A stretch of 64,000 nucleotides of DNA from Tabrizicola aquatica (GTDB lineage: Bacteria > Pseudomonadota > Alphaproteobacteria > Rhodobacterales > Rhodobacteraceae), in assembly GCF_002900975.1 (NCBI RefSeq), contig NZ_PJON01000004.1:1-64000 (forward strand), written 5' to 3'. Position numbers and translations under genes: made by a program. Within the stretch, counting starts at the first letter, position 1. Each line of letters starts with the position of its first letter. The notes below the pieces were generated by a model, which ran no database searches, was not told the origin of the DNA, and worked only from the letters and a program-made list of their open reading frames with translations. Of the stretch, positions 6,685 through 61,934 are shown piece by piece.

Positions 6685-7005
6685 CTCCTCGTTCGACTTC
6701 GTCTCCTCGTCGGATGTCGCCCTCTGGCGCTCCGACGGGGCGTGACGAAGTCACCGAAGATCCAGCCCGCGAGGAGCGCCAAAGTCATCGACGAGCGCCA
6801 GCGGGACGCACAACCGGGCCTTCAGGCGCTACCACCCCCGAGGACGGACGAAGTCACCGACAAGCCGCAGCACGAGGCACAACCTGCCATCCGCACGCCG
6901 CGCCCCCAGCGAGGAGTGACGAAGTCATCGACGAGCGCCAGCTGGACACACAGCCGGGCAACCACGCCAGAACCCCAGCGAGGAGTCACGAAGTCACCGA
7001 CGAGC
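6685..7005. repeat. Tandem array of ~70-bp units with GAC-GAA-GTC core (repeat family D)
   Basis: The gap between the hydrolase stop (6681) and the lysS stop (7034) is filled by a degenerate tandem repeat. Units begin GAGGAG at 6771, 6840, 6911 and 6980, a period of 69-71 nt. A partial unit lies at 6741-6765, and an inverted copy of the core arm at 6685-6712 reads CTCCTCG..GACTTCGTC. Each unit contains GAC-GAA-GTC, a mini-hairpin with a GAA loop, then TCGACGAGC or a close variant, then a shared GCCAGC..GGAC.CACA stretch. Related arms occur at 22316-22427 and 53710-53783. Open frames across the array look like by-products of the repeat. The array sits between two convergent genes. Confidence 0.8.
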
Positions 7006-22315: not shown

Positions 22316-22427
22316 GCTCCTCGTGCGACTTCGTCTTCTCGTCGCCCGCGAGGCGCGATCCTTCCACCTGGCCTTACCCTGCGCAGCGGCTCGACCCGCG
22401 CGAGGAGTGACGAGGTCATCGACGAGC
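22316..22427. repeat. Family D inverted pair between the OsmC-like and GMC genes
   Basis: The left arm 22316-22344 (CTCCTCGTGCGACTTCGTC then TTCTCGTCG) nearly matches the arm at 6685-6712. The right arm 22399-22427 (CGAGGAGTGACGAGGTCATC then GACGAGC) matches the forward units of the 6.7-kb array. The arms are loosely complementary with a ~54-nt interior. The right arm abuts the stop codon of the OsmC-like gene (22428). Confidence 0.7.
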
Positions 22428-34100: not shown

Positions 34101-34190
34101 TTTCATACTGGCGGAAATATCCTGGGGGTTTGGGGGTGAAACCCCCAACGCCGAGGAGGAGGCGAAGCCCGACGACGAGACAAAAGCCTT
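34101..34190. repeat. Family B element, hairpin and degenerate C module upstream of the M3 peptidase gene
   Basis: TTTCATACTGGCGGAAATAT (34101-34120) is a family B head like that at 20492. Then TTGGGGGT (34130-34137) pairs with ACCCCCAA (34141-34148), an 8-bp stem with a GAA loop. A weak C-module copy (GACGAGACAAAAGCC) follows at 34172-34186. It occupies most of the 168-nt gap between the peptidase start and the ABC permease stop. Confidence 0.65.
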
Positions 34191-34209
34191 GCGGCGCAAG
34201 CCGCTCCGC

Positions 34210-43460: not shown

Positions 43461-43988
43461 CTCCCGCCCCTCACCCTTGTCGTCGGCGGTGCCCGGTCCG
43501 GCAAATCCGCCTTCGCCGAGCAGTTGGTGACCGCCACCGGCCGCCCCCGCCGCTACATCGCCACGGCCGAAGCCTGGGACGACGAGATGCGCGATCGCAT
43601 CGCCCGCCACCTCGCCCAGCGCGGTGCCGCATGGACGACAGTCGAGGCCCCCCTGGACCTGCCCGCCGCCCTCGCCACCACTCGCCCCGACGAGTCGGTG
43701 CTTGTCGACTGCGCGACGCTCTGGCTGACGAACCACCTGCTGGCCGACCACGACCTTGCCGCCGAAGCAGCCCGCCTGATCGCCGCCCTTGTCGCCTGCC
43801 CGGCCCCTGTCATCGTGGTGTCCAACGAAACCGGTTGGGGCATTGTTCCCGACAACGCGCTCGCTCGCCGCTTCCGCGATGCGCAAGGCCGGCTGAACCA
43901 GCGGCTTGCCGCCGAAGCCCAGCTGGTCGTCACCGTGATCGCCGGTCTGCCCCTGGTGCTGAAGGGTTCCCTTCCTGACCCAAAGTAA
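43449..43988 (+). CDS. cobU: Adenosylcobinamide kinase / adenosylcobinamide-phosphate guanylyltransferase
   Basis: A 179-aa bifunctional enzyme in cobalamin nucleotide-loop assembly. LVVGGARSGKSAFAEQLV is the P-loop with CobU features. RRYIATAEAWDDEMRDRIAR contains the His/Arg region used for guanylyl transfer, and VLVDCATLWLTNHLLADHD and VIVVSNETGWGIVPDNALAR are conserved strands. The start is taken as GTG 43449 (VTGSLPPL) with GAGG upstream; a TTG at 43425 is also open. Divergent from rpoH by about 67 nt. A family A palindrome follows the stop at once. Confidence 0.92.
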   Translation: MTGSLPPLTLVVGGARSGKSAFAEQLVTATGRPRRYIATAEAWDDEMRDRIARHLAQRGAAWTTVEAPLDLPAALATTRPDESVLVDCATLWLTNHLLADHDLAAEAARLIAALVACPAPVIVVSNETGWGIVPDNALARRFRDAQGRLNQRLAAEAQLVVTVIAGLPLVLKGSLPDPK

Positions 43989-44012
43989 GGTGGGCGATCT
44001 CGCCCACCCTAC
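43989..44012. repeat. Family A palindrome between cobU and the cobC-like gene
   Basis: GGTGGGCGA (43989-43997) pairs with TCGCCCACC (44000-44008), 9 bp, starting one base after the cobU stop and followed by CTAC. It lies between two same-strand genes, so transcription may be attenuated here. Confidence 0.75.
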
Positions 44013-44044
44013 TCCCGCGCATCCCCACAAACCGAAAGCCCCCC

Positions 44045-45761: not shown

Positions 45762-47279
45762 ATGACCGCCCGGACCTACACCGTCGCCTTCGAAGGGGTC
45801 GAGGCCCGCCTGGTCGAGGTGCAATGCGCCATCTCGGCCGGCTCACCCTCCTTCACCCTCGTCGGACTGCCCGACAAGGCGGTATCCGAGGCCCGCGAAC
45901 GCGTCCGCGCGGCGCTGCAGGCGATGTCCATCGCGCTGCCGTCAAAGCGGATCACCGTCAACCTGTCGCCCGCCGACCTGCCCAAGGAAGGCTCGCATTT
46001 CGACCTGCCGATTGCCGTGGCCCTCCTCGCCGCGCTTGAAATCATCCCGGGCGAAGATGTCGAAGGCGTGGTTTCGCTGGGCGAACTCTCGCTCGACGGC
46101 CGGCTGATCGCCGTTGCAGGTGCGCTGCCCGCCGCCATGGCCGCCGCGGTCGAGGATCGCGCGCTCCTCTGCCCGAAACCCTGCGGGGCCGAGGCGGCCT
46201 GGGTCGGCGCGACCGATGTCCTCGCCGCCGCCTCGCTGGAAGAGGTGCTGCACCACTACACCGGCCGCGCGCCCCTGACCCCGGCCCAGGCGGGCGAGGT
46301 GACCGGCGGCGCGACCCCCCGCGACTTCCGCGAGGTGAAGGGCCAGGAACGCGCCAAGCGCGCCCTGGAAATCGCCGCCGCCGGACGGCATCACCTGTTC
46401 ATGGTCGGCACGCCCGGGTCGGGCAAGTCGATGCTTGCCGCCCGCCTGCCCGGCATCCTGCCACCCCTGTCCGCGCCCGAGGCGCTGGAAACCTCGATGA
46501 TCCATTCGCTGGCGGGTCTCTTGACCGAGGGCGGCATCTCCCGCGACCGCCCGTTCCGAGAGCCGCACCACACCGCCTCGATGGCCGCCATCGTCGGCGG
46601 CGGGCGCGGCGCGAAACCGGGTGAGATTTCGCTGGCCCATAACGGCGTCCTCTTCCTGGACGAATTCCCTGAGTTTCCCCGAACCGTGCTGGACACCCTG
46701 CGCCAGCCGATTGAAAGCGGCACGGTCATGGTCGCCCGCGCCAATGCCCATGTCCGCTATCCCTGCCGGTTCCTGCTGATCGCGGCGGCGAACCCGTGCA
46801 AATGCGGCTATCTCTCCGACCCTGCGCGCGCCTGCGGCCGCGCGCCCGTCTGCGGCGAGGATTACCTGGGCCGGATCTCCGGTCCGCTGATCGACCGCTT
46901 CGACCTGCGGGTCGAGGTGCCGCCCGTGGCCTTCACCGACCTTGACTTGCCTGCCACGGGCGAGACCTCCGCCTCCATCGCGGCCCGCGTGGCCGCCGCT
47001 CGTGACCGCCAGACCACCCGCTTTCGCGATGCGCCGGGCCTCCGGGTCAATGCCGACCTGGAAGGCGCCGCGCTGGAGGATTTCGCCACTCCCGATCCCG
47101 AGGGCAAGGCCCTGATCTCGCGCGTCGCCGAACGCATGGGCCTCTCGGCGCGCGGCTACCACCGGATCTTGCGCGTGGCCCGGACGATTGCCGATCTGGA
47201 TTCCAGCCCCACGGTCCGCAAACCGCACATCGCCGAGGCGGTCAGCTTCCGGCTCTCGGCGTCGGTGGGCGGGTTGTAG
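45762..47279 (+). CDS. yifB: YifB/ComM-family Mg-chelatase-like AAA ATPase
   Basis: A 505-aa protein. The N-terminal ~165 residues are a Lon-protease-like (ChlI) domain (LVGLPDKAVSEARERVRAAL, ITVNLSPADLPKEGSHFDLP). MVGTPGSGKSMLAARLPGI is Walker A, NGVLFLDEFPEFPRTVLDTL Walker B, and NPCKCGYLSDPARACGRAPV a zinc-finger-like insert. The C-terminal helical domain ends AVSFRLSASVGGL. ComM homologues are hexameric helicases promoting branch migration in natural transformation, so it may help integrate incoming DNA. ATG 45762. The stop is part of a family A palindrome. Confidence 0.95.
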   Translation: MTARTYTVAFEGVEARLVEVQCAISAGSPSFTLVGLPDKAVSEARERVRAALQAMSIALPSKRITVNLSPADLPKEGSHFDLPIAVALLAALEIIPGEDVEGVVSLGELSLDGRLIAVAGALPAAMAAAVEDRALLCPKPCGAEAAWVGATDVLAAASLEEVLHHYTGRAPLTPAQAGEVTGGATPRDFREVKGQERAKRALEIAAAGRHHLFMVGTPGSGKSMLAARLPGILPPLSAPEALETSMIHSLAGLLTEGGISRDRPFREPHHTASMAAIVGGGRGAKPGEISLAHNGVLFLDEFPEFPRTVLDTLRQPIESGTVMVARANAHVRYPCRFLLIAAANPCKCGYLSDPARACGRAPVCGEDYLGRISGPLIDRFDLRVEVPPVAFTDLDLPATGETSASIAARVAAARDRQTTRFRDAPGLRVNADLEGAALEDFATPDPEGKALISRVAERMGLSARGYHRILRVARTIADLDSSPTVRKPHIAEAVSFRLSASVGGL

Positions 47280-47303
47280 GGTGGGCAATATTGCCCACCC
47301 TAC
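47276..47303. repeat. Perfect 28-bp family A palindrome overlapping the yifB stop
   Basis: GTAGGGTGGGCAAT (47276-47289) followed by its exact complement ATTGCCCACCCTAC (47290-47303). The TAG stop codon of yifB is bases 2-4 of the element. It lies between convergent yifB and gshB and is well placed to terminate both. Confidence 0.85.
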
Positions 47304-49755: not shown

Positions 49756-50931
49756 ATGTTGTCCGTTATTCGCCGGGCCCGCAAGTCGCTGGGCCAGACC
49801 TTCCTTGTGCTTGCCGCCGCGGTGCTTTCGGCCTGTGTCCCTGCGGGAGGTCCGGCCACCGGTCCAGCCCAGGGCAATGGCGGGACGGTGCAGGTTGCCT
49901 TGCTGATCCCCTCGGGCTCGGGCCAGTCACAGGATGAGTTGTTCGGCCAGAACCTGGAAAATGCGGCACGGCTGGCGATGGCCGACCTGTCGGGGGTCCA
50001 GATCGACCTTCGGGTCTACCGGACCGGCGGCAGCCCGGCGCAGGCAAGTGCGCTGGCCAAGCAGGCCGTCGATGAGGGCGCGCAGGTGATCCTGGGGCCG
50101 TTCTATTCGGAGGAGGCGAACGCCGCCGGCGTTGCGGTGGCCAATTCGGGCGTGAACGTCCTGGCCTTCTCGAACAACGCGGCCATCGCCGGGGGCAACG
50201 TGTTCGTTCTGGGCCAGACCTTCGATAACACCGCGCGCCGGCTGGCAAGCTATTCCGTGCGCAATGGCAAGTCCAAGATCCTGGTCGTGCATGACCGCAA
50301 TGTTGCGGGCGAGGTTGGCAAGACCGCGATCGAGCGTGGTGTTTCGGCAGCCGGTGGATCGGTCGTGGGCGTCACCTCGTATGAGTTCTCGCAGAACGGG
50401 ATCGTCCAGGCAGCGACCGGGATCGTGAACACCGCGAAATCCTCGGGCGCGACGGCGCTGTTCCTGACGGCTGATACCGCGGGTGCGTTGCCGCTTCTCA
50501 GCCAGCTTCTGGTGGACAACGGCATCGACCGCAGCACCACCCAGTTCATCGGCCTGACGCGTTGGGACATTCCGCCCGCCACGCTGGCCCTGCCGGGTGT
50601 TCAGGGCGGCTGGTTCGCCATGCCGGACCCGGGCCTTTATGCCCAGTTCAAGTCGCGCTACCAGTCGGCCTATGGCAGCCAGCCGGTGCCCGTGGCGGGT
50701 CTGGCCTATGACGGAATTGCTGCCATCGGTGCATTGGCCCGCAGCTCGAAAGGGGCGCCGATCACCCGGGACGCGCTGACCCAGTCGGCCGGGTTTGCCG
50801 GTGTCTCGGGCATCTTCCGCCTGCTGCCGAACGGCACGAACGAGCGTGGGCTGGCCGTGGCCACCATCCGCGGCGGTCAGGTCGTCGTGATCGACGGCGC
50901 GCCGCGCAGCTTTGCCGGGGCCGGGTTCTGA
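49756..50931 (+). CDS. LpoA-like penicillin-binding-protein activator lipoprotein
   Basis: A 391-aa lipoprotein. The signal peptide ends in lipobox L-S-A-C with Cys27. The rest is a periplasmic-binding-protein-like (type 1) fold: VQVALLIPSGSGQSQDELFG, QVILGPFYSEEANAAGVAVA and ALFLTADTAGALPLLSQLLV. In E. coli LpoA activates the peptidoglycan synthase PBP1A at the outer membrane, and the companion YraN/RsmI genes also flank lpoA there, supporting the same role. ATG 49756 with GTGAGGAA upstream. It ends 4 nt before glnD. Confidence 0.87.
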   Translation: MLSVIRRARKSLGQTFLVLAAAVLSACVPAGGPATGPAQGNGGTVQVALLIPSGSGQSQDELFGQNLENAARLAMADLSGVQIDLRVYRTGGSPAQASALAKQAVDEGAQVILGPFYSEEANAAGVAVANSGVNVLAFSNNAAIAGGNVFVLGQTFDNTARRLASYSVRNGKSKILVVHDRNVAGEVGKTAIERGVSAAGGSVVGVTSYEFSQNGIVQAATGIVNTAKSSGATALFLTADTAGALPLLSQLLVDNGIDRSTTQFIGLTRWDIPPATLALPGVQGGWFAMPDPGLYAQFKSRYQSAYGSQPVPVAGLAYDGIAAIGALARSSKGAPITRDALTQSAGFAGVSGIFRLLPNGTNERGLAVATIRGGQVVVIDGAPRSFAGAGF

Positions 50932-50935
50932 CATC

Positions 50936-53701
50936 GTGAGCCTGGCTGCCGAGACCCCGCACCTGAGTGTGACGGGGTCCGAACCCCTGATCCCCGACCC
51001 CGTGGCACTGCTGGCGGCGGTGCGGCAGGACCTGCTCGACGCCGGGGACGGCAAGGCAGGGCGGGCGGCAGTGGTCCGGCATCTGCAGGCGGCCAAGGCT
51101 GCGGGCAACGCGGCGCTGGAGGCGCGGTTCCTGGAAACGCCCCGTGCGGCGCGGGCGCTGGTCACGGCGCAGGCGGCGCTGACCGACGTGCTGGTCCGCG
51201 TCGCGCTGGAGGCGGCGATGCTGATGCATCCGCTGGCCAACCCGACCGAGGCGGAACGCATCGCGGTGATGGGCGTCGGCGGCTATGGCCGGGCGGAAAT
51301 GGCGCCGCAGTCGGACGTCGATCTTCTGTTCCTGTCGCCCTGGAAGGTCACCCCCTGGGCCGAGAGCGTGATCGAGACCATGCTCTACATGCTGTGGGAC
51401 CTGAAGCTGAAGGTCGGCCATTCCAGCCGCACGGTGAAGGATTGCATCCGGCTGGGGCGCGAGGACGTGACGATCCGCACCGCGCTGCTGGAGCATCGGT
51501 ATATCTGTGGCGACACCGCCCTGGCTGGCGAGTTGGACCAGAAGCTGTGGTCCGACCTCTTCCGCAACTCGGGCCCCGAGTTCATCGAGGCGAAGCTTGC
51601 CGAACGGGCGGAACGGCACAAGCGGCAGGGCGGCCAGCGCTATGTGCTGGAGCCGAACGTCAAGGAAGGCAAGGGCGGCCTGCGCGACCTGCAGACGCTG
51701 TACTGGATCGGCAAGTACCTGCACCGCGTGCCCAGTGCCGAGGGGCTGGTGGCGGCCGGCCTTCTTAGCCGCGAAGAGTTCGACAGCTTTGCCCAGGCCG
51801 AGGATTTTCTTTGGGCCGTGCGCTGCCACCTACACTACATCACCGGGCGGCCCACCGACAGCCTGACCTTCGACCTGCAGGTCGAGGTCGCCGAGCGGAT
51901 GGGCTATCGCGATGCGGGCGGCCGGCGGGCGGTCGAGCATTTCATGCAGGATTACTTCCGCCTGGCGACCCGGGTGGGCGAGTTGACGCGCATCTTCCTG
52001 ACCGAGCTGGAAGCACGCCACGCCAAGCGCGAGGCCAGCCTGTTCGGGATCTTCAAACTGACCAAGCGGGTCCGCAAGGGCTATAAGCTAGTGCAGGGCC
52101 GGATCGACGTGACCGATCCGCAGGCCTTTCTGGCCGACAAGCTGAATATCCTGCGCGTCTTTGAAGAGGCCTTGCGGACCGGCTACCTTTTGCACCCCAA
52201 CGTCATGCGCCTGCTGGCCGCGAACCTGCACCTGATCGACGACGACCTGCGTGAGGTCCCCGAGGCGCGCCAGCTGTTCCTGGACCTGCTCTTGAAGCAC
52301 GGCAACCCCGAACGCAGCCTGCGCCGGATGAACGAGTTGGGGGTGCTGTCGGCCTTCATCCCGGAGTTCGAAGCCATCGTCGCGATGATGCAGTTCAACG
52401 TCTACCACCACTACACGGTGGACGAGCACATCATCCAGACGATCAGCTGCCTTGCCCAGATCGAGCGGGGCGAGCTGGTCGAGGAACTTCCCGTCGCCAG
52501 CGGCATCCTGAAAGAGGGCGTCAGCCGGCGCGTTCTTTACGTGGCGCTACTTCTGCATGACATCGGCAAGGGCCGGCCCGAGGATCACTCGATCCTTGGC
52601 GCGCAGATCGCGCGGCGGGTGGCACCCCGGTTGGGGCTGGACGCGGAAGAATGCGAAACGGTGGAATGGCTGGTGCGCTATCACCTGCTGATGTCCGACA
52701 CGGCACAAAAGCGCGATATCGGCGACCCGCGCACGGTGCGGGATTTCGCCAAGGCGGTGAAGACCCGCAAGCGGCTGGACCTGCTGACCGTCCTGACGGT
52801 CTGCGACATTCGCGGCGTGGGGCCGGGCACCTGGAACAACTGGAAGGCCATGCTGCTGCGCCAGTTGTACAAGCTGACCGCCGAGGCGCTGGAAGGCGGG
52901 CTGGAGACGCTGAACCGGGAAAACCGGATGGGCGACGCCACGCGGGCGCTGCGTGCCCGGCTGGCGGACTGGGACCAGGCCGATCTGGACCACGAAACGA
53001 CGCGGCATTACGCGCCATACTGGCAGGGCTTGTCCACCGACACCCATGCGGTCTTTGCCCAGATGCTGCGCGGCATCGGCGACGACGAGATCCGCATCGA
53101 CCTGCACCCCGACCACGACCGCGACGCCACCCGCGCCTGCTTTGCGCTGGCCGACCATCCCGGCATCTTCAGCCGCCTTGCCGGCGCGCTGGCCCTGGTC
53201 GGCGCGAACGTGGTGGATGCGCGGACCTATACCTCGAAGGACGGCTATGCCACGGCGGTGTTCTGGGTCCAGGACATCGAAGGCAAACCCTATGAGGTCA
53301 GCCGCCTCCCCCGCCTGCGGCAGATGATCGACAAGACCCTGAAGGGCGAGGTCGTGGCGCGCGAGGCGCTGAAGGACCGCGACAAGCTGAAGAAGCGCGA
53401 CCGCGAGTTCCGCTTTCCGACGCATATCACCTTCGACAACGAAGGCTCGGACATCTACACGATCATCGAGGTCGATACCCGCGACCGGCCGGGCCTGCTG
53501 TATGATCTGACCCGGACACTGGCGAACAACAACATCTACATCGCCAGCGCCGTGATCGCGACCTATGGCGCGCAGGTGGTGGACACGTTCTATGTCAAGG
53601 ACATGTTCGGCCTGAAGCTGCACCAGAAGCACCGGCAAGAGGCGCTGGACAAGAAGCTGCGCGCCGCCATTGCCGAGGGCGCGGAGCGGGCGCAGGCATG
53701 A
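50936..53701 (+). CDS. glnD: [Protein-PII] uridylyltransferase / uridylyl-removing enzyme
   Basis: A 921-aa nitrogen-status sensor that uridylylates PII proteins when glutamine is low and removes UMP when it is high. GVGGYGRAEMAPQSDVDLLF is the nucleotidyltransferase site (G-S/D-x-D pattern). LLLHDIGKGRPEDHSILGAQ is the HD hydrolase site. Two ACT domains close the protein: ADHPGIFSRLAGALALVGAN and DTRDRPGLLYDLTRTLANNN. The start is taken as GTG 50936 (VSLAAETPHL); TTG 50912 would lie inside the upstream gene. Immediately after the stop comes the perfect 31-bp inverted repeat. Confidence 0.96.
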   Translation: MSLAAETPHLSVTGSEPLIPDPVALLAAVRQDLLDAGDGKAGRAAVVRHLQAAKAAGNAALEARFLETPRAARALVTAQAALTDVLVRVALEAAMLMHPLANPTEAERIAVMGVGGYGRAEMAPQSDVDLLFLSPWKVTPWAESVIETMLYMLWDLKLKVGHSSRTVKDCIRLGREDVTIRTALLEHRYICGDTALAGELDQKLWSDLFRNSGPEFIEAKLAERAERHKRQGGQRYVLEPNVKEGKGGLRDLQTLYWIGKYLHRVPSAEGLVAAGLLSREEFDSFAQAEDFLWAVRCHLHYITGRPTDSLTFDLQVEVAERMGYRDAGGRRAVEHFMQDYFRLATRVGELTRIFLTELEARHAKREASLFGIFKLTKRVRKGYKLVQGRIDVTDPQAFLADKLNILRVFEEALRTGYLLHPNVMRLLAANLHLIDDDLREVPEARQLFLDLLLKHGNPERSLRRMNELGVLSAFIPEFEAIVAMMQFNVYHHYTVDEHIIQTISCLAQIERGELVEELPVASGILKEGVSRRVLYVALLLHDIGKGRPEDHSILGAQIARRVAPRLGLDAEECETVEWLVRYHLLMSDTAQKRDIGDPRTVRDFAKAVKTRKRLDLLTVLTVCDIRGVGPGTWNNWKAMLLRQLYKLTAEALEGGLETLNRENRMGDATRALRARLADWDQADLDHETTRHYAPYWQGLSTDTHAVFAQMLRGIGDDEIRIDLHPDHDRDATRACFALADHPGIFSRLAGALALVGANVVDARTYTSKDGYATAVFWVQDIEGKPYEVSRLPRLRQMIDKTLKGEVVAREALKDRDKLKKRDREFRFPTHITFDNEGSDIYTIIEVDTRDRPGLLYDLTRTLANNNIYIASAVIATYGAQVVDTFYVKDMFGLKLHQKHRQEALDKKLRAAIAEGAERAQA

Positions 53702-53709
53702 CCCGGACA

Positions 53710-53783
53710 GGCTCGTCGAGCACTTCGTGCACTCCTCGCGCAGGGTGCGCCCCGCGAGGAGTGCACGAAGTGCTCGACGAGCC
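53710..53783 (+). repeat. Perfect 31-bp inverted repeat filling the glnD-murJ gap (family D)
   Basis: Arm 1 is 53710-53740 and arm 2 is 53753-53783, exact reverse complements with a 12-nt loop (CAGGGTGCGCCC). Each arm contains GCACTTCGTGC or its complement, so smaller hairpins nest within the large one. Arm 2 begins CGCGAGGAGTGCACGAAGTG and matches the family D unit, with GCAC/GTGC replacing TGAC/GTCA. It starts 9 nt after the glnD stop and ends 31 nt before murJ. It could terminate glnD, shield the RNA end, or regulate murJ. Confidence 0.9.
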
Positions 53784-53814
53784 GCACCAACACCGCAGGG
53801 AAGAACCCCAAGCC

Positions 53815-55359
53815 ATGAAACCCGTCCGCCTGGTCAAGGGCTTTGTCACCGTCGGGTTCTGGACCCTGGTCAGCCGGGTGGCGGGCCTGGTCCGCGACAT
53901 CTTCCTGGCGCGCTATCTGGGCGACGGCACGGTCGCGCAGGCCTTTGTCGTGGCGCAGTCGCTGCCCAACATGTTCCGACGCTTCTTTGCCGAAGGGGCG
54001 TTCAACTTTGCCTTCGTGCCGATGTTCGCCAAGAAGGTCGAGGCGGGCGAGGATGCGCAGGGCTTTGCCGGGGATGCCTTCTGGGGCATGGCGGCGTTCC
54101 TGACGCTGTTTTCGATCCTGGGCATCCTGTTCATGCCGGGACTGGTGTTCCTGATGGCCTCGGGCTTTGTCGGGGACGAACGGTTCGACGTGGCGGTGAC
54201 GCTGGGGCGGATCGCCTTTGCCTATATCCTGTTCATCTCGCTGACCGCGCTTTTGTCCGGGATGCTGAACGCGGCGGGCAAGTTCGTGGTGACGTCGGTC
54301 GTAACGGTGCTTCTGTCGCTCAGCATGATCGGCGGCATGATCCTGGCCGCGCGGATGGGCTGGGACATGGGGCGCACCTTGGCCTGGTCGGTGACCATCT
54401 CGGGCGTCTTGCAACTGCTGGCGACCTGGGCGGCGGTGCGGCATCTGGGCTACCGGCTGCCGTTCCGCTGGCCGCATCTGACCCCGGACCTGAGGCGCCT
54501 GGCCGTGATCGCCGCACCGGCGGTGCTGGCGGGGGGCGTGGTGCAGATCAACCTGATCGTCGGCCGCCAGGTGGCAAGCATGACGGACGGGGCGGTGGTC
54601 TGGCTGTACAACGCCGACCGGATCTATCAGCTGCCCTTGGGCGTCGTCGGCATCGCCATCGGCATCGTCCTGCTACCCGACCTGTCGCGCCGGCTGCGGG
54701 CCGCGGATCACGAAGGCTCGCGCGCGTCGTTCAACCGGGGGACGGAGTTCGCGCTTCTCTTGACGCTGCCTGCCGCCGTGGCGCTGGTGGTCATCGCCTG
54801 GCCGATCATCAGCGTCCTGTTCCAGCGCGGCGAGTACGGCCCGGAGGCGACGATGAACACCGCTTTGGCGCTTGCCGCCTATGGCGCGGGGCTGCCGGCC
54901 TTTGTCCTGCACAAGGTGCTGCAGCCCCTGTTCTACGCGCGGGAAGATACGCGCTCGCCCTTCCGCTATGCTGTCGTTTCGATGGTGGTCAATGCCGCGC
55001 TGGCTGTGGGGCTTCTGCCGCTGATCGGCTGGCTGGCGGCCGCCATTGCTACCACGGTCGCGGCCTGGGTCATGGTCTGGCAGCTGTGGCGGGGTAGCCG
55101 GGCGATGGGCGACGCCGCGCGGCTGGACGAGCGGTTCCGCTATCGCTTGCCGCGGATCGCCCTTGCCTCGGCCCTGATGGGGGCGGTCCTATGGGGTCTC
55201 AGCCTTGCGCTGGCTGAAACGCTGGCCACCCCGGGCCTGCGCACGCCGGCCCTGGGGGCGGTCGTGCTGGCGGGGATGGTGGTCTACTTCGGCACGGTCC
55301 TTGCCATCGGCGGCATGAGTTGGGTGGAGTTGAAAGGCGCCTTCCGCCGTCAGCGCTGA
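53815..55359 (+). CDS. murJ: Lipid II flippase MurJ
   Basis: A 514-aa inner-membrane protein of the MOP exporter superfamily with about 14 helices that flips lipid II for peptidoglycan. LVKGFVTVGFWTLVSRVAGL and RDIFLARYLGDGTVAQAFVV are the family's first helices, with the conserved R-D. LPNMFRRFFAEGAFNFAFVP is the signature loop. RQVASMTDGAVVWLYNADRI and LQPLFYAREDTRSPFRYAVV occur later. ATG 53815 (MKPVRLVKG). Its last 10 nt overlap the convergent rhomboid-like gene. Confidence 0.95.
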   Translation: MKPVRLVKGFVTVGFWTLVSRVAGLVRDIFLARYLGDGTVAQAFVVAQSLPNMFRRFFAEGAFNFAFVPMFAKKVEAGEDAQGFAGDAFWGMAAFLTLFSILGILFMPGLVFLMASGFVGDERFDVAVTLGRIAFAYILFISLTALLSGMLNAAGKFVVTSVVTVLLSLSMIGGMILAARMGWDMGRTLAWSVTISGVLQLLATWAAVRHLGYRLPFRWPHLTPDLRRLAVIAAPAVLAGGVVQINLIVGRQVASMTDGAVVWLYNADRIYQLPLGVVGIAIGIVLLPDLSRRLRAADHEGSRASFNRGTEFALLLTLPAAVALVVIAWPIISVLFQRGEYGPEATMNTALALAAYGAGLPAFVLHKVLQPLFYAREDTRSPFRYAVVSMVVNAALAVGLLPLIGWLAAAIATTVAAWVMVWQLWRGSRAMGDAARLDERFRYRLPRIALASALMGAVLWGLSLALAETLATPGLRTPALGAVVLAGMVVYFGTVLAIGGMSWVELKGAFRRQR

Positions 55360-61251: not shown

Positions 61252-61901
61252 TCATCTCGCGGGCCCGCCGGTTTGTCTTCGTGCATGTGCCGAAGACCGG
61301 CGGGACCGCCTTTACCCTGACTTATGAGGCGCGGGCGGCGAAGGATGATATCCTGATCGGCGACACGCCCAAGGCGCGCAAGCGGGCCGCGCGCTGGAAG
61401 GGGGTCCGAACGGCAGGGCGGGTGTGGAAACATTCGACCCTGGCGGACGTGGTGGGCCTGGTCACCCCCGAGGAAATCGGGGCCTGCCTTGTGGCAACGC
61501 TGGTGCGCAATCCATGGGACCGGGCGGTCAGCTACTATCACTGGCTGCGGGCGCAAGGCTTCGCTCACCCTGCGGTGGGGCTGGCAAAGGCGCACGACTT
61601 TTCGGGCTTCCTCAACCACTCGCAGACAAGGGCGGGCTTGCGGATGTGGCCCTATGGCGCCTATCTGCGGCGGGCGGACGGCGCAGAATACCCGGCGCAT
61701 TTCATCCGGCTGGAGCATTATGTGGCAGACGTCGCCCCGGTCGAAGCGCATCTGGGGTTTCGCCTGCCCCTGCCCCGTACCAACGCAAGCACGCGGGACC
61801 GGGATTGGCGCGGCTACTACAGCGACGCGGATGCAGACCTGATCGCCGAGCTTTGCGCCGAGGATATCGCCCGCTTCGGCTATCGTTTCGCGGGGGCGTA
61901 A
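61248..61901 (+). CDS. Sulfotransferase-family protein
   Basis: A 217-aa PAPS-dependent-sulfotransferase-like protein. RRFVFVHVPKTGGTAFTLTY is the 5'-phosphosulfate-binding loop with the P-K-T-G-G motif. TLVRNPWDRAVSYYHWLRAQ is the 3'-phosphate-binding segment (R-N-P-x-D-R). The acceptor is unknown; lipid, sugar or peptide sulfation are options. It overlaps the upstream dehydrogenase by 4 nt and ends at a TAA that is part of a family A palindrome. An odd last gene for an operon of basic metabolism. Confidence 0.85.
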   Translation: MIISRARRFVFVHVPKTGGTAFTLTYEARAAKDDILIGDTPKARKRAARWKGVRTAGRVWKHSTLADVVGLVTPEEIGACLVATLVRNPWDRAVSYYHWLRAQGFAHPAVGLAKAHDFSGFLNHSQTRAGLRMWPYGAYLRRADGAEYPAHFIRLEHYVADVAPVEAHLGFRLPLPRTNASTRDRDWRGYYSDADADLIAELCAEDIARFGYRFAGA

Positions 61902-61925
61902 GGTGGGCGATATCGCCCACCCTAC
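61898..61925. repeat. Family A palindrome overlapping the sulfotransferase stop
   Basis: GTAAGGTGGGCGAT (61898-61911) faces ATCGCCCACCCTAC (61912-61925), one mismatch in 28 bp. The TAA stop (61899-61901) lies inside. Convergent with fadJ, whose stop is 10 nt beyond; a bidirectional terminator is likely. Confidence 0.85.
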
Positions 61926-61934
61926 GCCGGCCCC

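Follow-up and report, generated by a model that had tools for sequence, protein, structure and literature searches.

The described systems closest to the element reported here are REP sequences and their doublets. REP sequences and REPINs have a fixed foot, a GTAG-type tetranucleotide, and in the BIMEs of Escherichia coli two arm types, the Y and Z REPs, are paired as inverted doublets. The REPINs and REP doublets of Pseudomonas fluorescens SBW25, which occur with RAYTs, are described in an excerpt of PMC3116915 as dispersed, inverted extragenic doublets with variable spacers. A further point of reference is the bidirectional intrinsic terminator; according to an excerpt of PMC5381666, these hairpins behind genes evolve by compensatory change. 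We compare with these systems a palindrome between glnD and murJ of Tabrizicola aquatica, which lies in a window of 64,000 nucleotides (64 kb), the whole stretch of DNA analyzed.

The initial annotation had described this palindrome as a perfect 31-bp inverted repeat, and an inverted-repeat search recovered it at 53710..53783 (no strand assigned) with two 31-nt arms (53710-53740 and 53753-53783) that are 100% complementary around a 12-nt loop. Among the matches listed (25 of 28 pairs), the next-longest perfect inverted repeat in the window is 14 nt. As RNA, the region has a predicted fold of -81.1 kcal/mol (z -9.8). The palindrome lies between glnD, encoding PII uridylyltransferase (50912..53701, + strand; matches to NF003467 and TIGR01693), and murJ (53815..55359, + strand; TIGR01695 match). 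It starts 8 nt after the glnD stop codon, rather than the 9 nt first given, and ends 31 nt before the murJ ATG, as first noted. No terminator-like site was predicted in 53300-54000. An ATG overlaps the glnD stop codon (ATGA), and its frame is open across the palindrome into murJ (53698-53815). We rejected a reading of this frame as an extension of MurJ: the frame is open in the window, yet gap lengths in relatives (113, 109, and 103) differ by non-multiples of three.

We read the glnD-murJ junction at 30 loci from 32 Tabrizicola genomes. The two genes touch or overlap at 19 of the 30, and 21 loci have no arm there; the special role in separating glnD from murJ that had been suggested is not supported. 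C-type arms (see below) are present at five loci, with one arm truncated in G021; two others (G005 and G030) have a different tandem-GA doublet, CGAAGAAAGCC-GNNA-GGCTTGATGAG; and a short remnant is left at two (G025 and G001, where it comprises just six bases). In Tabrizicola soli (G006; L278, C5 about 135770-135850), G/C runs and Ns adjoin the palindrome, perhaps reflecting assembly damage from the strong hairpin.

The repeated unit is an arm of 26-28 nt in which hairpin pairing is possible on one strand only. The arm has the layout CGAnGAm - stem - GNA or GNRA loop - stem - m'GAn'GAG and pairs as an outer C-G, G.A/A.G, n-n', G.A/A.G, m-m', and then the stem, with two tandem G.A blocks and Watson-Crick pairs between them. 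G.A pairs in tandem blocks have a sheared geometry. The nested GCAC-TTC-GTGC hairpin noted earlier inside each half of the palindrome is correct, but that description missed the outer CGAnGAG heptamers with their tandem G.A blocks, which are confined to one strand. C-type arms (TGCAC-GAA-GTGCT) have a 4-bp stem with an adjoining T.T, and A-type arms a 4-bp stem with a bulged T. The exchange of GCAC/GTGC for TGAC/GTCA, first read as compensatory, turned out to be a difference between arm types; compensation does occur, and is clearest at two other places, the heptamer's central pair and the stem's middle pair. One flip of the outer pair (G...C) was found.

Covariation supported the proposal that the small hairpin is under selection. 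Of 149 arms in this genome, 142 have a Watson-Crick pair at n-n' (GC 81, CG 59, AT 2; the remainder GG 3, CC 1, GT 1, CA 1, AC 1). The corresponding count was 35 of 36 arms in 284 contiguous kb of this genome, 62 of 65 in contiguous stretches of three genomes, and 350 of 364 in the collected loci, where pairing at other positions was required; overall, G, C, A, and T were all seen at position n. The middle stem pair of 93 unique B-type arms was AT in 53, CG in 20, GC in 10, TA in 3, and another combination in six, with one not listed, a tally that covers the eight commonest types among those listed. Mutual information, calculated with no structural prior, ranked position pairs 11-17, 8-20, 4-25, and 9-21 highest in these B arms and 10-16, 8-19, and 4-23 highest in 52 A arms; all these positions are either paired in the hairpin or opposite each other in its internal loop. 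Of four pairs tested, three had values that no shuffle reached in 2000 trials, and the A-arm central pair had a value reached in 4 of 2000. At the central pair, G-T/T-G combinations outnumbered A-C/C-A 15 to 2, an excess that would identify the GA strand as the one that pairs; it rests largely on one genome, G090, which contributed 11 of the 12 G-T arms in other genera, and among the types listed the unique arms gave 3 versus 3. Energy models of single arms as DNA or RNA gave z of -0.5 to 0.6, apart from the C-type GA arm, which reached -1.8 as RNA. That single arms are ranked as not unusually stable may count against the small hairpin or against the way the models score tandem G.A. From the sequence comparisons, it seems that each small hairpin, and not the big palindrome, has been kept by evolution.

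The palindrome belongs to a dispersed family, as the initial annotation had supposed. A pattern with no constraint on the central base detected 149 arms in 345 kb of this genome, made up of stretches around pattern matches and including the window; we give no genome total because copy number is uneven between contigs. The A pattern matched 63 places and the B pattern 83 (reversed control 0 for each), and the short C-type pattern matched 31 (controls 4). In 284 contiguous kb, again with the central base free, there were 36 arms; the same sequence reversed had 0, and a shuffle by codon blocks had 1. The 148 arms with a GAA or GCA loop formed 94 clusters: 46 in -+ order, three longer ones that keep this order (--+ twice and -++ once), one +-, one ++, and 43 single. 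Inverted doublets are frequent, and 105 of the 148 arms have at least one neighbor in their cluster. By rough gene calls, 124 of the 148 lie outside called genes, and 30 of the 36 arms in the contiguous stretch overlap a called gene by at most 15 nt. The arrangement is REP/BIME-like, as had been suggested, in that the doublets are dispersed, extragenic, and inverted. By type, 39 of 49 doublets are heterotypic A/B, six are C/C, two B/C, two B/B, and none A/A. A plasmid collection contained no match. Among viral contigs, L262 (659-684) has an exact A-pattern match and a 79% alignment with this genome around C1:269679, and L370 (692-717) has an exact match of the second hairpin type.

Within the window, the pattern finder and the covariance model placed the two C-type arms of the glnD-murJ doublet at 53712..53738 (- strand) and 53755..53781 (+ strand), each at 39.4 bits. 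The 6.7-kb array and 22.3-kb pair that had been attributed to the same unit are both present as covariance-model matches. The array consists of a B-type arm (6685..6712, - strand; B pattern), a degenerate A-type arm (6770..6795, + strand; A pattern, 24.7 bits), a weakly matching degenerate arm (6839..6864, + strand; finder and model, 15.9 bits, E 0.26), an A-type consensus arm (6910..6935, + strand; A pattern), and an A-type variant (6979..7004, + strand; A pattern). The 22.3-kb doublet has a B-type left arm (22317..22344, - strand; B pattern) and an A-type arm with a changed loop, GAG (22401..22426, + strand; A pattern). A further tandem-GA arm (34152..34179, + strand; B pattern, D-copy alignment, and covariance model) lies inside a longer repeat, the D element (34106-34206), which comprises AAATATCC, a G-rich hairpin, and then the tandem-GA arm and GACAAAAGC. 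Nine copies of the D element were aligned, and D-like sequence was seen twice in G004 and once in G006. A second palindrome family, like GTAGGGTGGGC..GCCCACCCTAC, lies near ORF ends at 43984-44013, 47276-47303, and 61895-61928; it resembles classical REPs with a GTAG foot, in a genome with no detected Y1 transposase, and an N-spacer pattern search for it gave no matches.

The arms have a preferred orientation at gene ends. An arm lies within 25 nt of a stop codon in the CU sense in 76 cases and in the GA sense in 20, out of 148 arms, compared to random expectations of about 18 and 17; for single arms near a stop codon in this genome, the counts were 18 and 6. The same test in other genera gave 40 CU and 11 GA of 96 arms (expectation about 19 and 21), and single arms there showed little orientation bias (8 versus 5). 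Accordingly, the stop-proximal arm reads CU-rich in the mRNA of its gene, and the distal arm of a doublet reads GA-rich and is able to fold. In the contiguous stretch, again by rough gene calls, elements occupy 10 of 30 convergent, 4 of 88 tandem, and 3 of 32 divergent gaps that are 30 nt or longer (convergent 10/30 versus other gaps 7/120, Fisher P 1.9e-4). None of 42 doublets is followed by 8 nt containing at least four T, and the doublets do not present the GC hairpin followed by a U-run that characterizes intrinsic terminators. The YC content of the CU strand is modestly high, at the 80th to 97th percentile. A Rho/rut signature was considered and is weakened by this only moderate YC content.

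We next compared doublets at orthologous sites. In 23 comparisons at 14 sites, identity is 93% for arms (88 mismatches in 1242), 45% for spacers (gapped), and 71% for right flanks. The relatives were mostly fetched through the A arm, and A-type sequence had also served as the seed of the initial searches. These comparisons derive from 24 hand-picked from 98, one of which (C8:86380/L252) was excluded as its arm types differ. Double changes that preserve pairing, given as this genome versus the relative with no polarity assigned, occurred at several shared sites (C7:123128 versus L176, C-G to G-C; C7:266342 versus L169, G-C to C-G; C6:286173 versus L152, G-C to A-T), among them two at the middle stem pair (A-T to C-G in both C1:435213 versus L227 and C1:960862 versus L239). 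Uncompensated arm changes were present at orthologous sites in L188, L090, and L074, and paired changes could also come by copying from other family members. The contiguous-stretch finder and the site-sharing surveys of G004 and G006 involved no A-arm seeding. Four of 14 resolved sites were shared with G004 (20 clusters examined); three were resolved in G006, of which two were shared (A/B or C doublets) and the third is a D element with a GCAA-loop arm. Filled and lacking sites both occur between genomes, with heavily diverged junctions. The repeat that G004 has at C7:123128 is a different one, and a relative carries B/A instead of C/C at C8:86380; such different hairpins at the same place suggest a shared gene-end role or a shared landing site.

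Judged by sequence, A arms hardly occur outside the genus: they are in 28 of 32 genus genomes, T. soli and Tabrizicola flagellatus among them, and in 5 of 395 family genomes (4 of 351 genera). A loose family search for CGAGGAG-N10-14-CGACGAG gave mostly coding-looking repeats among the matches listed, and we therefore used a covariance model based on 25 varied arms. In a scan with stricter filters and at most 38 candidates scored per genome, the model had matches at E <=1e-3 in 14 of the 199 family genomes, representing 13 of 198 genera, several single matches looking coding. The 106 matches from other genera include four duplicates (L386, L393) and a weak match (L383), leaving 101 for pair and order counts; the stop-codon test used 96, after removal of five coding-looking singles (L377, L378, L381, L424, and L426). 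Doublets in -+ order occur in G189, G088, G090, G134, G034, and G141, and 37 of 40 neighboring arms have this order. Stems differ, for example CGCCC-GNAA-GGGCG, and tetraloops include GCAA (9), GAAA (5), and GCGA (2) among 87 arms. In G088, an arm at L392 1501-1527 can be drawn with three tandem G.A blocks and Watson-Crick pairs between them. At n-n', the 101 arms have CG 30, AT 27, GC 25, GT 12, TA 5, GA 1, and GG 1. In an alignment that was fitted to structure, and with all 106 matches (93 distinct) counted, the covariation score was 0.644, versus 0.167 for shuffled and <=0.100 for slid controls, and paired positions reached 93.3%, versus 69.0% shuffled and <=60.2% slid; further pair types (12 versus 13.0 in shuffles) were the one of five measures with no excess. 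A rescan that made no pairing demands at n or m returned 71 Watson-Crick and 11 G-T pairs, or 82 of 87. We tentatively consider it possible that Tabrizicola and several other Rhodobacteraceae genera share a class of strand-asymmetric gene-end elements in which the GA strand folds and its complement stays open in the outer half.

Searches for known partners and relatives gave the following results. The PF01797 model for RAYT had no match over the cut-off in the 32 genus genomes, some of them incomplete, and two weak matches; a partial PF01797 match was present in one of 10 element-bearing genomes. No Y1 transposase was found in this genome. With no full match to the PF01797 model in these genomes, an association with a RAYT was rejected or at least weakened. 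A weak, below-cut-off Y1_Tnp match falls in a 168-aa open frame (L303, L304) in G018 and G030. Rfam 15 had no match at gathering score in the window; sub-threshold hits at 53600-53900 were three miRNA precursors and RF02649.

The sequence evidence is compatible with several explanations. The one we place first, tentatively, is that the doublet may well be a bidirectional 3'-end module acting on transcript 3' ends; what led us to it is that the arms keep one order, have the CU sense next to stop codons, favor convergent gaps, and evolve slowly. A transcript arriving from either side would first contain, behind its stop codon, a CU-rich stretch with a poorly paired outer half, and the GA hairpin might then mark or protect the 3' end after termination. 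Since a U-run is missing, termination could be of the Rho type, a weak step given the modestly high YC content. For the tandem glnD-murJ case, the 31 nt left before the murJ ATG are awkward for a full terminator, and the element might act there like an intercistronic REP, stabilizing or attenuating rather than fully terminating. A trans factor reading the G.A/G.A spacing would account for free stems and a nearly fixed CGAnGAn. A serious, though less likely, alternative is a mobile doublet of the REPIN/BIME kind, with arms recognized by a single-strand transposase and gene ends as tolerated landing sites. The dispersed, mostly extragenic inverted doublets with variable spacers agree with what the excerpt of PMC3116915 describes for REPINs, the A/B heterotypic pairs recall the Y/Z doublets of E. 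coli BIMEs, and high copy number in one genus, strong turnover between species, and the remnants of arms left between glnD and murJ in G025 and, less clearly, in G001 point the same way. However, no RAYT was found in the genus with the PF01797 model, spacers looked unrelated between loci by eye, and neither the fixed orientation to stop codons nor the slow evolution of arms in place (mostly in A-arm-fetched relatives) is expected for neutral landing sites. Both explanations may be true in sequence, with a mobile doublet later kept for use at transcript 3' ends.

It is improbable that the long inverted repeat is itself functional, whether as an RNA stem for RNase III or termination or as a DNA cruciform, even though the glnD-murJ copy is perfect over 31 bp and strongly folded. 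Predicted RNA folds of 42 doublets average -35 kcal/mol with 22 inter-arm pairs and are predominantly arm-to-arm, as is the minimum-energy fold in 21 of 25 doublets from other genera; the small hairpin therefore need not form in a full-length transcript. Partners' inner stems also agree in 38 of 49 doublets versus 28.5 expected, which could equally follow from shared ancestry. Against a functional long stem, partner arms are identical in just 4 of 49 doublets, their loop bases agree in 33 versus 32.7 expected, and their central heptamer bases agree less than expected (12 of 49 versus 22.6). Given arm type, coordination between partners is not significant (P 0.17 in A/B doublets; 5 of 20 in G189, P 0.16). 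Moreover, inner stems differ between partners in 11 of 49 doublets, while the arms keep their own complementarity (3-bp inner stem complementary in 143 of 148), and a long stem would not demand one fixed order. With no clear coordination between partners, the long palindrome is unlikely to be the selected unit; judging from the alignments, the unit is probably the arm. Covariation favors the arm and thermodynamics allow the long stem; for the two to agree, folding would have to be co-transcriptional or guided by a protein. Crossing or pseudoknot pairing of partner arms was also considered and rejected, as anti-matching of central bases is not significant once arm type is fixed. There is a similarly slim chance of a DNA-level structural site, where the arms would either extrude once the DNA is single-stranded or, between convergent genes, be bound by a nucleoid or topology factor. 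Single-stranded DNA forms stable GNA triloops with a closing C-G, as well as stable tandem G.A blocks, and BIME-2 binds gyrase. The loops here are mainly GAA or GCA (318 and 51 of 407 arms, in a count that demanded outer pairing), and the convergent-gap bias would suit such a site; the GNRA tetraloops in other genera fit RNA too, and we know of no factor for DNA-level binding of the arms.

Compared with described systems, the Tabrizicola element resembles E. coli BIMEs in having two different arm types paired in inverted order at gene ends, and differs from them in sequence and hairpin. No GTAG-type foot tetranucleotide is fixed, because the heptamer CGAnGAG varies at n. As far as the excerpt of PMC3116915 describes REPINs, the two share dispersed, extragenic, inverted doublets with variable spacers and the ability to form hairpins, whereas the Tabrizicola elements have no RAYT that we found and differ by the tandem G.A arm, the conservation of arms in place at a set of orthologous gene ends, and the stop-codon orientation rule. 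To bidirectional intrinsic terminators, as presented in the excerpt of PMC5381666, they are alike in placing hairpins behind genes and in compensatory change, and unlike in lacking a U-run, in covariation inside each arm, and in the strand-asymmetric G.A stem. The Ruegeria trans44 sRNA (RF02649) gives a weak hairpin match (19.8 bits versus a gathering score of 108), and the element is not a member of that family. Among the matches listed from the open-licence PMC literature, including PMC12306157, PMC5381666, and PMC3116915, we recognized no paper as describing the element, and its arm design looks undescribed. If the 3'-end reading is true, the doublet would offer a possible explanation of transcript ends between convergent genes of these GC-rich alphaproteobacteria, where no U-run follows, and the paired tandem G.A blocks would be a structural code for which to seek a binding factor. 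Covariation across many copies and some shared sites indicates that a REP-like family, with no recognizable RAYT, can be maintained by selection on a single small, non-canonical hairpin in each strand rather than on the large palindrome. The layout is that of known REP doublets, and the arm architecture and its covariation appear to be new.
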